DNA from: an uncultured Alphaproteobacteria bacterium
GTDB lineage: Bacteria > Pseudomonadota > Alphaproteobacteria > Micropepsales > Micropepsaceae
Direction: 5' to 3'
Assembly: GCA_902826695.1 (NCBI GenBank)
Contig: CADEFU010000017.1
Span: forward strand, 1-64,000
DNA length: 64,000 bases
A program made the translations under genes and the position numbers. The stretch's first letter is position 1. The number at the start of each line of letters is the position of its first letter. The notes under the pieces were generated by a model that was given only the letters and a program-made list of their open reading frames with translations, made no database searches and was not told where the DNA came from. Below are positions 5,965 through 10,400 of this stretch, in pieces.

Positions 5965-6040
5965 GCCGCCTTAGCTCAGCCGGTAGAGCATCGCATTCGT
6001 AATGCGGGGGTCGCGTGTTCGAGTCACGCAGGCGGCACCA
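5965..6040 (+). tRNA. tRNA-Thr (anticodon CGT)
   Basis: 76-base cloverleaf. The acceptor arm GCCGCCT pairs with AGGCGGC, followed by discriminator A and an encoded CCA. The D-arm contains AGCTCAG..GGTAGAGC. Anticodon stem TCGCA/TGCGG encloses the loop TTCGTAA (anticodon CGT, reads ACG). The T-arm contains GTTCGAGTC. The tRNA is complete. Nearby ATCCGTT repeats suggest its 3' end may have served as an integration site. Confidence 0.96.
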
Positions 6041-6318: not shown

Positions 6319-6333
6319 GAACATATAGCGAAC
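6319..6333 (+). promoter_or_regulatory. Candidate LexA (SOS) box, GAAC-N7-GAAC
   Basis: GAACATATAGCGAAC matches the alphaproteobacterial LexA direct repeat (GTTC-N7-GTTC on the opposite strand). It ends 64 bases before the ATG of the secreted-protein gene at 6398. One or two chance matches are expected in 64 kb, so this is tentative. Confidence 0.4.
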
Positions 6334-6397: not shown

Positions 6398-7135
6398 ATG
6401 CGCCACACACCCTCCCTCGTCCGAGCCCGCCTTTTCGTCGCCGCGCTCTTGTGTGCCGTGACACTCACGCCTGCGCTCGCCGCCGAGCGGGCGCCGATCA
6501 AAACCATCGGCATCGTTTCCGACGTCGGCGACAAGGTCCACCACAAGCACATCGGCTTCATGGTGTTCTCGAACAAAGATACAGTGCACGACGTGCCCGA
6601 CTGGGCGATCGACGCGCACATCACGACGGCACTCAGTAACGGTCTGAAAGGCCGCTACGAACTGAAGCCTGTCGACTTCCCGCGCGGCACCATCGCGCCC
6701 GCGCTGGACGATCCGTTCGACGCCCCCGACCCCGAAGACACGATGCGCGCGAACGCAAAGCCCGCAGGCGGCGCGAGCGTCGATGCCTACGTCGTCGCCT
6801 GGCCGACGCTCGACAATGTCTACGGCACGAACCAACACGTTCAAGGCATCGGTCTGCTGACGCGAGGCGGCCGCGCGATGCTGTACCTGGCCGTACGCGT
6901 CACCCTGCTCGACGGCCGCACATTCGAGGAGATCGACAGCTGCGGCGCCCGCATTCGCGACCGTTCATTCTGGAACCCCGATGAGAGCACCATGAACAAA
7001 GCCCCCGAGTTCGAAGATGTCGAAAGTTTCGACGCGCTGACCCCGGAGCAAAGGCAGACGATGCAAACCGGCCTGAAGCACATGCTGACCGACGGCTTGA
7101 ACTACTGCCTGCGTGATTTGAAGCTTGTGGAATGA
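6398..7135 (+). CDS. Secreted protein of unknown function
   Basis: 245 residues. It begins with a clear Sec signal peptide (MRHTPSLVRARLFVAALLCA.., cleavage expected after ALA near residue 27). A good ribosome-binding sequence, GGAGAAAGG, ends 2-3 bases before the ATG. The mature part starts RAPIKTIGIVSDVGDKVHHK and contains a DCI-like acidic mid-part (DAPDPEDTMRANAK) and three cysteines or fewer. I recognise no domain. It stands between two GAAC-N7-GAAC motifs and before the zeta-like kinase operon. Whether it belongs functionally with that operon is unknown. Confidence 0.75.
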   Translation: MRHTPSLVRARLFVAALLCAVTLTPALAAERAPIKTIGIVSDVGDKVHHKHIGFMVFSNKDTVHDVPDWAIDAHITTALSNGLKGRYELKPVDFPRGTIAPALDDPFDAPDPEDTMRANAKPAGGASVDAYVVAWPTLDNVYGTNQHVQGIGLLTRGGRAMLYLAVRVTLLDGRTFEEIDSCGARIRDRSFWNPDESTMNKAPEFEDVESFDALTPEQRQTMQTGLKHMLTDGLNYCLRDLKLVE

Positions 7136-7138
7136 GCG

Positions 7139-7152
7139 AAGCGAACTCGCTT
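7139..7152. promoter_or_regulatory. 14-bp perfect palindrome AAGCGA-AC-TCGCTT
   Basis: The inverted repeat lies 3 bases after the stop of the secreted-protein gene and 87 bases before the kinase operon. The 2-base centre is too short for an RNA hairpin loop, so a dimeric regulator site is more likely than a terminator. Confidence 0.35.
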
Positions 7153-7160
7153 AGCTTATA

Positions 7161-7175
7161 GAACAAAAACAGAAC
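7161..7175 (+). promoter_or_regulatory. Candidate LexA (SOS) box, GAAC-N7-GAAC
   Basis: GAACAAAAACAGAAC, flanked as A-box-AC, closely resembles known alphaproteobacterial LexA sites (AGAACAAAAA.AGAACA type). It touches a TATAGA hexamer at 7157-7162 that could be a -10 element. This is a suitable position for repression of the operon starting at 7239. Confidence 0.55.
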
Positions 7176-7238
7176 ACACTTGGAAATACCCGCGCCGGTA
7201 ACCTGGAATTTGTAAGCCCGACCGCCTAATGTTCTCCC

Positions 7239-7616
7239 ATGGCAAAAATGACCATCAACGGCGGCGGCGCGAAGAAGACGAACGCCCGCAAACCGCACAA
7301 GCGCACTGTCGGTGCGTTCGGGGCCCACTACGCCAAAAAGTTCGGCCCAAAGCCCCTGAAGACAGTTCGCTTCGGTCTAGTCACGGTCACCGACGAGGCG
7401 CCTTCGGACGCCGTCGTCAAAGTCGGCATCCGCCAGGGCAACGCTGGCCTCGACCGCGCGCTAACGGCAATCGTCACGCCGGGCGTCAAACTGAAACTCA
7501 AAGCGGGCGTGCCGCTCTACGCCGCGGACCCGAAGGACCCAAATCTCCTCATCCGTCAACTCGGCGGAAAGAGTGAACGGGGCCGGTTCGAAAGCGGCAA
7601 ATTCGTCAAGCTATGA
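7239..7616 (+). CDS. Hypothetical protein, first gene of zeta-like kinase operon (possible antitoxin)
   Basis: 125 residues. The basic, glycine-rich N-terminus (MAKMTINGGGAKKTNARKPHK, about 1-30) is followed by a compact hydrophobic/charged region (LVTVTDEAPSDAVVKVGIRQ). I do not recognise the family and it does not look like the helical epsilon antitoxin. Its stop overlaps the ATG of the kinase gene by 4 bases (7613-7616), so the two proteins are probably made together, as in toxin-antitoxin pairs. A GTG or ATG start further upstream is not supported. Confidence 0.7.
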   Translation: MAKMTINGGGAKKTNARKPHKRTVGAFGAHYAKKFGPKPLKTVRFGLVTVTDEAPSDAVVKVGIRQGNAGLDRALTAIVTPGVKLKLKAGVPLYAADPKDPNLLIRQLGGKSERGRFESGKFVKL

Positions 7617-8344
7617 CGGGGCTGCTTGCCGTCGTAGACGGCGTGAAGCAAGCGCAATCCAAATCCGGCAAACCGATGGGCGTCGTGCTCGCGGGGCACA
7701 ACGGTTCCGGCAAGTCGACGCTATGGTACCAGCGGTTGGCGGACAACTTTCGTATTCCGCTCGTCAACGCCGATCGCATGATGATGTCGATTTTGCCCGA
7801 AGTTCACGCCGGGGCACTACCAGCTTGGGCAGCGGAGTTGAGGGATAACGATACGAGCTGGATGCAGGTTGCCCAGCGCGGCGTTCAAGCCTTCGTCGCA
7901 CAAGCCATGCTGCGCGGCGTACCGTTCGCGATGGAGACGGTGTTTTCCGACTGGCGCGTTCAACCGGATGGAACGATCGTCTCAAAGATCGACTTGATCC
8001 GAGAGATGCAAAAGGCCGGCTACTTTGTCGTACTCTTCTTTGTCGGCCTTTCAAACACGCAAGTCTCGATTGCGCGCGTCGCTACGCGCGTGCAGGCCGG
8101 CGGGCACGCCGTGGATGAGCAGAAACTCATTGAACGCTTCCCTCGAACGCAGAAGGCAATCGCCGCGACACTCGACGTCGCGGATGCGGCGATCCTCGTA
8201 GACAACAGCCGAACTCAACACCACGCCTTCACCGCCTGTCACGTCCGCCTCGGAACGACGACAACCTACGACCTGCGAAAAGGCAAAGCTGCACCGCCGG
8301 CGGAAATCAGCGCGTGGTTGGACAAGGTGGTCCCAAGGCAATAG
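7613..8344 (+). CDS. Zeta toxin family kinase
   Basis: 243-residue P-loop kinase. Walker A GHNGSGKST lies at 28-36, the VNAD motif of zeta toxins at 51-54, METVFSD near 105, and the lid signature RVATRVQAGGHAVDEQKL (about 155-175) matches the R..RV..GGH.V pattern of zeta/PezT-like UDP-N-acetylglucosamine kinases. Such enzymes phosphorylate UDP-GlcNAc and are often toxins, though chromosomal solo kinases of the family may act otherwise. ATGA overlap with the upstream gene argues for a two- or three-gene unit. The 69-residue gene at 8372 follows after 27 bases. Confidence 0.85.
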   Translation: MTGLLAVVDGVKQAQSKSGKPMGVVLAGHNGSGKSTLWYQRLADNFRIPLVNADRMMMSILPEVHAGALPAWAAELRDNDTSWMQVAQRGVQAFVAQAMLRGVPFAMETVFSDWRVQPDGTIVSKIDLIREMQKAGYFVVLFFVGLSNTQVSIARVATRVQAGGHAVDEQKLIERFPRTQKAIAATLDVADAAILVDNSRTQHHAFTACHVRLGTTTTYDLRKGKAAPPAEISAWLDKVVPRQ

Positions 8345-8356
8345 ACGGGTGCTCAC

Positions 8357-8365
8357 AGGAGGTGA
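8357..8365 (+). promoter_or_regulatory. Strong Shine-Dalgarno deciding a GTG start
   Basis: AGGAGGTGA, nearly the full anti-16S complement, stands 6 bases before GTG 8372. It supports translation of the 69-residue gene from a non-ATG start. Confidence 0.7.
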
Positions 8366-8371
8366 CGCGAA

Positions 8372-8581
8372 GTGCCTAAACCCTCCAAACTCGGAAGAAA
8401 AACGCACGCCACGAACCCGGCGCCCCGCAAGACGGCACCTGATCTGGCCGCGTGCATCAAGGCCTTCGCCGAAAGCGTACGCGCGAACTACGACACGAGC
8501 CCGGTTACGAAATCAGAATGGGACAAAGCGTGCGGTGACACGCGGACCGAACCGCTTAAACCGTCGAGGAGCCGTGGCTAA
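8372..8581 (+). CDS. Small hypothetical protein, third gene of zeta-like operon
   Basis: 69 residues starting at GTG with a near-perfect Shine-Dalgarno. The N-terminus is basic (MPKPSKLGRKTHATNPAPRK), the middle helical and weakly acidic (DLAACIKAFAESVRANYDTS), with a Ser/Arg tail. No family recognised. Short helical proteins are common as antitoxins, so this is an alternative antitoxin candidate for the kinase. The GTAATCGTGTC repeat begins 6 bases after its stop. Confidence 0.6.
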   Translation: MPKPSKLGRKTHATNPAPRKTAPDLAACIKAFAESVRANYDTSPVTKSEWDKACGDTRTEPLKPSRSRG

Positions 8582-8582
8582 T

Positions 8583-8603
8583 CCGGTGACAGGTAATCGT
8601 GTC
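8583..8603 (+). repeat. GTAATCGTGTC element, copy 1
   Basis: GGTGACAGGTAATCGTGTCTCC. The core GACARGTAATCGTGTC is shared with copy 2 (inverted, 8881-8901) and copy 3 (10283-10300). Together with copy 2 it brackets a duplicated gene fragment. Confidence 0.7.
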
Positions 8604-8638
8604 TCCTGCACGTGCTGTGCGTGCACGGCTTCACCTCA

Positions 8639-8876
8639 CCCCAACGTCCGCGCAAACAGCCCATCCCACACGCCAAGCGCGGGCTTCGGCCGAAGGTCGC
8701 TGTCCGTCAGCCCAATCTGCGTGAACAGCGGCAGGATCTCCGGCACCGCAATCGGGAAATTCGTGAGGTCGAGATCGGCGTAGAGCGTCTGGATCACGCC
8801 GCGCGCTCGAATGCTGTCGAGCAACATCGGCATGGCGCACGATGTAGCGCAGCGCGGGTGTGGAGTTGATCGGGAG
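8639..8876 (-). pseudogene. Duplicated 3' fragment of the TIM-barrel-like gene at 12802-13896
   Basis: About 240 bases nearly identical (roughly 95% by eye) to 12803-13045. The frame gives LLDSIRARGVIQTLYADLDL.. through to the C-terminal FARTLG, against FARRLG in the intact copy. A 6-base and other small losses near 8825-8845 break the upstream reading frame at the STPALQARY region. Only the last 80 or so codons are present, so it is not a working gene. High identity implies a recent copy. Confidence 0.85.
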
Positions 8877-8880
8877 GCCC

Positions 8881-8901
8881 GGGGACACGATTACCTGTCG
8901 C
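8881..8901 (-). repeat. GTAATCGTGTC element, copy 2 (inverted)
   Basis: Reverse complement reads GCGACAGGTAATCGTGTCCCC. It joins the gene fragment exactly where homology to the intact gene ends and faces copy 1, forming an inverted pair about 300 bases apart. Confidence 0.7.
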
Positions 8902-8917
8902 AGGCTTCGGCAGCCGC

Positions 8918-10062: not shown

Positions 10063-10280
10063 CGTGAGCGCGTCCGCAGCCTTGCCGTTCGGCACGAACA
10101 AAATCGCGTCGAAAGCCCAATCGATCGCCGTGTTTCTTCCGGCAAGTGCTTCCACCGCGATGGCCGGTCCCTCCAAGTCTTGAGAGCGAACAGCGTCATC
10201 GACTTCGCCTCGACTTGGGGCGCGAGGTCGAGGGGCGGCTTTGCCCTCGCTCAGCGCAAACTCCAAAACGCTGATGCCGC
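10063..10280 (-). pseudogene. Decayed 3' end of a paralogue of the EreA/ChaN-like gene at 28493-29716
   Basis: In one frame the minus strand reads MTLFALKTWRDRPSRWKHLP, in another IDWAFDAILFVPNGKAADAL, and further upstream LEFALSEGK. The intact protein has MTLFDLKPWKDRPGRWKHLP, IWAFDAVLFVPNGKPAAPL and FELAVSEGK in that order. Frameshifts separate the pieces and about 100 bases are missing between the SEGK segment and the rest. Identity is about 70% by eye, so this is probably an old paralogue rather than a recent copy. Confidence 0.75.
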
Positions 10281-10282
10281 GA

Positions 10283-10300
10283 CAAGTAATCGTGTCCCCA
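10283..10300 (+). repeat. GTAATCGTGTC element, copy 3
   Basis: GCGACAAGTAATCGTGTCCCC spans about 10281-10301. It sits exactly between the remnants of two different genes, as copy 2 sits at a fragment junction. Confidence 0.65.
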
Positions 10301-10301
10301 C

Positions 10302-10400
10302 ACACCAAGCGCCAGCCTTTGGCCGCATGTCGCCATCCGTGTGTCCAAGCTGCGTGAACAGCGGCAGGATTCGCCGCGCCGCAATCGTGACGGCCGTCAC
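10302..10400 (-). pseudogene. Decayed 3' fragment of a TIM-barrel-like gene (paralogue of 12802-13896)
   Basis: The minus strand reads ILPLFTQLGHTDGDMRPKAG, against ILPLFTQIGLTDSDLRPKPA in the intact protein, followed by a damaged GVWDG segment. It is more diverged than the copy at 8639-8876. No open gene remains. Confidence 0.7.

Follow-up and report, generated by a model that had tools for sequence, protein, structure and literature searches.

Zeta-type kinase toxins have so far been described with several kinds of antitoxin. In the zeta and PezT toxins of the epsilon-zeta and PezAT systems, a GTxR motif that follows a conserved Glu binds UDP-GlcNAc, according to PMC6362051. The same paper describes Rv0366c (PezT-Mtb), which lacks GTxR yet inhibits growth, with growth restored by the antitoxin Rv0367c (PezA-Mtb), for which a ParD-like Pfam match is reported. 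AvrRxo1-ORF1/ORF2 follows a two-gene toxin-antitoxin logic (PMC4938570). With respect to regulation, PMC13384398 presents Caulobacter higBA as a LexA-repressed toxin-antitoxin operon that was acquired locally by one lineage, and the Caulobacter LexA consensus appears as GTTC-N7-GTTC in PMC12700426.

The locus described here lies in the window, a 64,000-nt stretch of DNA from an uncultured bacterium of the Micropepsaceae (Alphaproteobacteria). The original prediction had placed a zeta-toxin-like kinase in a three-gene unit with a 125-residue basic protein (here p125) and a 69-residue protein, furnished with its own palindrome and a LexA-like box. The relevant features are as follows.

7161..7175, no strand assigned: LexA-type box, GAACAAAAACAGAAC (GTTCTGTTTTTGTTC on the minus strand), 63 nt 5' of the p125 start
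7191..8344, plus strand: block common to the window and the same-genus genome G087, 87% DNA identity, comprising a short leader and both genes
7239..7616, plus strand: p125 gene, 125 aa, candidate antitoxin, with a core at about residues 43-125 and a basic, low-confidence N-terminal tail (1-39)
7613..7616, plus strand: ATGA stop/start overlap of p125 and kinase, read from the sequence and suggestive of translational coupling
7613..8344, plus strand: kinase gene, zeta-superfamily, 243 aa, candidate toxin
8372-8581, same strand as the kinase: 69-aa ORF with a GTG start and the Shine-Dalgarno sequence AGGAGGTG at 8357-8364, 27 nt behind the kinase stop

The two small genes are present as predicted: the p125 frame is basic (net charge +17) and overlaps the kinase by ATGA, and the 69-residue frame has its near-perfect Shine-Dalgarno and GTG start. 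The pair and the 69-aa ORF are flanked by a 245-aa gene (6398-7135) and by repeated non-coding DNA. The extent of the unit, on the other hand, had to be revised. The DNA match to G087 ends exactly at the kinase stop codon and the 69-aa gene is absent there, so that, as judged from this comparison, the unit is p125 plus kinase, two genes and not three. Both genes are under purifying selection (dN/dS between the window genome and G087 of 0.12 for p125 and 0.15 for the kinase). In a third genome of the genus, G091, the upstream gene is present (88%) but the pair is not, and thus the site is variable within the genus.

The 69-aa protein had been proposed as a kinase partner, and its strong Shine-Dalgarno, its strand and its position 27 nt behind the kinase stop would suit an antitoxin or third component of a three-gene unit. 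Its relatives point elsewhere. Of the order's 96 genomes, 9 contain matches, some of them with a marginal E value, and the better ones are the C-termini of VapB proteins; identity to the VapB of G045 is 59% over 29 residues (E 3e-12 in a one-sequence comparison, 1e-8 by tblastn with the window). That VapB has a PF07704 match at 6e-20, and the gene after it encodes a PIN-domain VapC, a layout repeated in translations of G086 and G027. The 69-aa protein has no PF07704 match, nor any other Pfam match above a cut-off, and is without the DNA-binding half, and the window contains no VapC match below E 7. From these similarities, the protein is best described as a detached VapB C-terminal tail, akin to vapBC loci elsewhere in the family and unrelated to the pair. 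Together with its absence behind the kinase in G087, this leaves the three-gene reading with hardly any chance of being right. A similar lone VapB tail occurs in G091 (L167, about 1501-1662); the lone tails of these two genomes of the genus could be solitary antitoxin fragments (anti-addiction) or relics.

The assignment of the kinase itself was borne out. Pfam Zeta_toxin (PF06414) scores 34.8 bits against a cut-off of 22.3, while nothing lies above the NCBIfam cut-offs and PADLOC gives weak P-loop matches only. The sequence contains a complete Walker A (AGHNGSGKST, 27-36), Asp54, Glu108-Thr109 (within ETVFS, 108-112), the lid arginines Arg155 and Arg159, and Gly164-His165; these residues were equated to those of zeta through the motif spacing that PMC6362051 describes for Rv0366c, and not by superposition. 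All 50 aligned kinases share residues 28-35 (GHNGSGKS), 54, 108-112, 155, 159, 164 and 165 without variation, and 48 of them keep Thr36 (the alignment comprises 49 of 52 rows plus L033, with plasmid loci left out; redundant and fragmentary rows had been removed earlier from the lists for this alignment and for that of p125). The AF2 model is confident (pLDDT 95, pTM 0.91), with PezT (2e-7) and zeta (6e-7) as the top Foldseek matches and with Z scores of 15.2 for bacterial Pnkp (rmsd 3.1, 166 aligned), 14.4 for zeta (rmsd 3.8, 185) and 14.0 for PezT (rmsd 3.5, 175). By its Pfam match and modelled structure, the protein is a zeta-superfamily phosphotransferase whose predicted fold lies nearest to bacterial Pnkp, zeta and PezT.

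The kinase shares its fold and catalytic layout with epsilon-zeta and PezAT (the Foldseek values above) but lacks the GTxR UNAG motif: TVFS follows the conserved Glu in all 50 aligned sequences. Because GTxR is replaced by an invariant ETVFS, the substrate is probably one other than UDP-GlcNAc. In this respect the kinase resembles Rv0366c, as PMC6362051 describes it, and zeta kinases with ParD_like partners, which likewise have no GTxR, retain equivalents of the Walker A, Asp, Glu, Arg and Gly-His positions, and are closely preceded by a small partner arranged in the same way. Plasmid-borne kinases of the latter group differ in being only 34-37% identical to the window kinase, which has an extra stretch at about 60-76 and a longer C-terminus. 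The AvrRxo1-ORF1 kinase is also related in fold (Z 13.7), although the comparison concerns the kinase only, against a longer crystal chain (331 residues) with 12-14% identity.

The adjacency of p125 and kinase is strongly conserved. A kinase profile run against 84,980 species genomes produced 453 pattern matches; 85 of them were confirmed, and 80 loci were kept. These belong to Alpha-, Beta- and Gammaproteobacteria, along with some records that are labelled Acidobacteria and others. With a profile that had been iterated on the very loci being counted, a p125 homologue is found immediately before the kinase and co-oriented with it in 79 of these 80 kinase-chosen loci; with the un-iterated profile of eight members, the count is 65 of 80 at E 0.01. 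The one exception among the 80, L100, has its kinase spread over three frames. In every one of the 89 loci that hold both genes, p125 is upstream and co-oriented. A -4 (ATGA) overlap is available in 55 of the 79 loci, the remaining junctions being at -1 (5), at another nearby start (14) or without one (5). Thus the original expectation of conserved adjacency held for p125 and failed for the 69-aa gene.

As a control, 15 loci of more distant zeta kinases were inspected, six of them on plasmids and nine of them short stretches, in part close to contig ends, in genomes of the same order. No p125 homologue was found in any of the 15 (best E 0.73). The gene upstream of the kinase in five of the six plasmid loci is instead ParD_like (PF11903), in the same layout, and that of the sixth is without a family; the partner type therefore follows the kinase clade. 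Kinase and partner distances are correlated over 47 loci (r 0.79; the largest value in 999 permutations was 0.18), to which shared ancestry contributes. Two small, adjacent, co-oriented genes with a conserved association are the layout of a type II toxin-antitoxin system, and we assign a probability of about 0.75 to the reading that the pair is such a module, built on a zeta-type kinase and an antitoxin family that has not been described.

The partner family has no counterpart in the resources searched. Nothing matches it in Pfam, NCBIfam, PADLOC, PHROGs or the PDB, no DNA-binding or antitoxin domain can be recognised in it, and phages yielded no match. Sequence searches of 62 members (61 of 69 alignment rows plus L033, with L094 and plasmid loci left out) against Pfam and NCBIfam at E 0.1 returned no antitoxin family, whether of the epsilon or PezA type or any other, in agreement with the prediction that the kinase partner is neither. 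PF11903 also matched none of the 62, and hhalign of p125 with five ParD_like partners gave a probability of 0.2%, so no homology to those partners is detectable. The best PDB sequence match was at E 0.45 with an eight-row profile and at E 0.055 with a 62-row profile (a designed repeat protein; 11 rows at E 5). Annotated plasmid members carry the name 'hypothetical protein', and a p125-like partner is absent from the titles and abstract openings of the open-licence PMC literature searched. We regard p125 as a conserved kinase partner of an undescribed family that probably keeps the kinase in check.

In its AF2 model (pLDDT 78, pTM 0.38, a poor monomer model), p125 comprises a beta hairpin, a helix at 57-78 and a C-terminal beta meander, each with good local confidence. 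Foldseek gave 120 weak matches to this model, none at E 0.001 or better, and the best VIA-align Z was 2.2 over 36 residues; because of the pTM of 0.38, these searches indicate neither a new nor a known fold. Our guess is that p125 folds fully only when on its kinase.

The pair is rare and patchily distributed. Its carriers are scattered soil and water bacteria, which have it on plasmids or on the chromosome. Within the class, one of 385 surveyed genomes (the window's own) holds either gene; of 96 genomes of the order, two contain p125, and these are also the two with the close kinase. Plasmids carry the pair in Sphingomonas, Rhizorhabdus, Sphingobium, Rhizobium and Agrobacterium; L017 and L022 represent the pair on two Ti plasmids of Agrobacterium larrymoorei. 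A phage origin was considered and set aside, given that none of 45 pattern matches in viral_contigs was confirmed and that p125 matches nothing in phages.

The way in which the pair decays bears on the role of p125. When a kinase is counted as intact if a single reading frame covers 215 or more profile positions, 92 loci divide into 80 with intact kinase and p125, 11 with p125 and a broken or absent kinase, and one with neither; an intact kinase without p125 was found in none of the 92. Since two of the 11 (L020 and L021) were found by p125, the fair count is that among the 90 kinase-chosen loci, namely nine with a p125 frame and a broken kinase against none with an intact kinase alone. The kinase is twice as long as p125, and on that basis we estimate that 9 to 0 would arise by chance with a probability of about 0.03; L016 is a near-copy of L023, and a frameshift in a draft genome can reflect a sequencing error. 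The one-sided decay thus leans modestly towards toxin-antitoxin, short of proof. Strict co-occurrence cannot separate an inhibitor from an activator, and p125 might accompany its kinase as a chaperone, folding partner or activator; we see only a slender chance of this, since p125 frames outlast a lost or broken kinase (L020, L021, L016, L019) and sister kinases have antitoxin-family partners at the same place. The p125 homologues at L020 (3944-4252) and L021 (4001-4255) are without a working kinase: in Sphingomonas AAP5 the homologue is followed by an apparent kinase relic, and in Sphingobium yanoikuyae pF2 it adjoins a ParDE pair.

A different function for the same two genes would be DNA- or RNA-end repair, carried out by a polynucleotide-type kinase under SOS regulation and a basic partner that binds nucleic acid. 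The best structural Z score belongs to bacterial Pnkp kinases, tied with zeta, which would be compatible with a repair role; p125 is strongly basic across the family (mean net charge +10.8 over the 62 members, range -9 to +23); and a LexA-type box is present in this genus. We nevertheless consider such a repair pair quite unlikely: it is at odds with the rare, patchy and plasmid-carried distribution, with the Pfam call of Zeta_toxin and the antitoxin-family partner of the sister clade, and with the fact that the box is not a family feature.

The LexA-like box of the original prediction is real, in that GAAC-N7-GAAC at 7161-7175 fits the LexA box GTTC-N7-GTTC in the promoter region. Genome-wide, the loose motif is not enriched (177 sites versus 207 for the control), whereas the strict T-rich pattern GTTCNNNNTTTGTTC, chosen after the loose-pattern list had been seen, has 22 sites against 4 for its reversed-pattern control, 7161-7175 being among the 22. 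In the window genome, loose-pattern boxes lie upstream of lexA (two) and recA (one), and a strict-pattern site lies next to a RecQ-type helicase gene. A strict-class box is retained in G087, where it reads GAACAAATACGGAAC (GTTCCGTATTTGTTC on the opposite strand) amid upstream DNA that has otherwise diverged. Among the loci scanned, GTTC-N7-GTTC or GAAC-N7-GAAC was found upstream of p125 in the window, G087 (L024 and L025, the same place), L036 and L059 only, and the single boxes of L036 and L059 have spacers that are not T-rich; enterobacterial-type CTG-N10-CAG matches are scattered among the loci. An SOS module as a trait of the whole family was therefore rejected, and any SOS control is a local feature, because the box is essentially absent elsewhere. 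The predicted SOS link accordingly survives in narrowed form, plausible in this genus and not family-wide.

For this genus, it is fairly likely that the pair is under SOS control. It is doubtful, though by no means far-fetched, that the toxin-antitoxin pair instead lacks such control, the box being coincidental or not bound by LexA; this fits the unenriched loose motif, the post hoc definition of the strict pattern and the near-absence of the box from other loci, and sits less well with the 22-to-4 excess, with the survival of the box in G087 amid diverged flanks and with the boxes upstream of recA and lexA. If SOS control applies, the closest parallel is Caulobacter higBA (PMC13384398), also an alphaproteobacterial toxin-antitoxin pair with a LexA promoter in one lineage, although its toxin and antitoxin are unrelated and LexA control is demonstrated there and inferred for the p125-kinase pair.

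Under the type II toxin-antitoxin reading, p125 would be translated first, with the ATGA overlap setting kinase translation, and would bind the kinase and block its active site. A shortage of p125, following loss of a plasmid or island, proteolysis or stress, would free the kinase, which could then phosphorylate a small-molecule or nucleic-acid substrate and so stop growth. In this genus, the LexA box before p125 may raise transcription of the pair after DNA damage. A fuller version, in which p125 is a new antitoxin family with a fold unseen in solved structures and basic enough for nucleic acid, the zeta-fold kinase has a new target (perhaps nucleic-acid ends or a nucleotide cofactor) and LexA makes the pair a damage-triggered growth arrest in this genus, is unlikely to hold in all its parts.

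Should the main reading be correct, zeta-type kinases would have swapped antitoxins on at least one occasion beyond those already described (epsilon/PezA, ParD_like, AvrRxo1-ORF2 and now p125), and the swap would have kept the kinase chemistry and lost the UNAG site. The p125 clade would then be a compact system for learning what zeta-like kinases phosphorylate when UDP-GlcNAc is unusable, and a chance to catch antitoxin replacement; Pfam, NCBIfam and PADLOC contain no profile of its partner family.

Several observations concern the surroundings of the pair. The palindrome attributed to the unit exists as a hairpin at 7133-7158 (z -3.3), yet part of it coincides with the stop codon that ends the upstream gene, and the equivalent stretch of G087 lacks it; as an unconserved element, it was discarded as part of the unit. 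A promoter scan of 6900-8700 gave no sigma-70-like site, a result that is not informative for this organism. The 245-aa protein of the upstream gene (6398-7135) has no match in Pfam or NCBIfam; it is matched in 6 of 11 genomes of the genus, its gene lies near a tRNA-Thr (5965-6040), and the DNA behind it varies between genomes. A second GAAC-N7-GAAC, GAACATATAGCGAAC, lies at 6319-6333, 64 nt before this gene, and is not of the T-rich class. Downstream, GACACGATTACCTGT occurs three times (8575-8606, 8881-8912 and 10270-10299), in inverted and direct order, where 0.04 occurrences are expected with two mismatches allowed; together with a 74-nt direct repeat (8684-8757 and 10317-10390), these copies form a small dispersed element.
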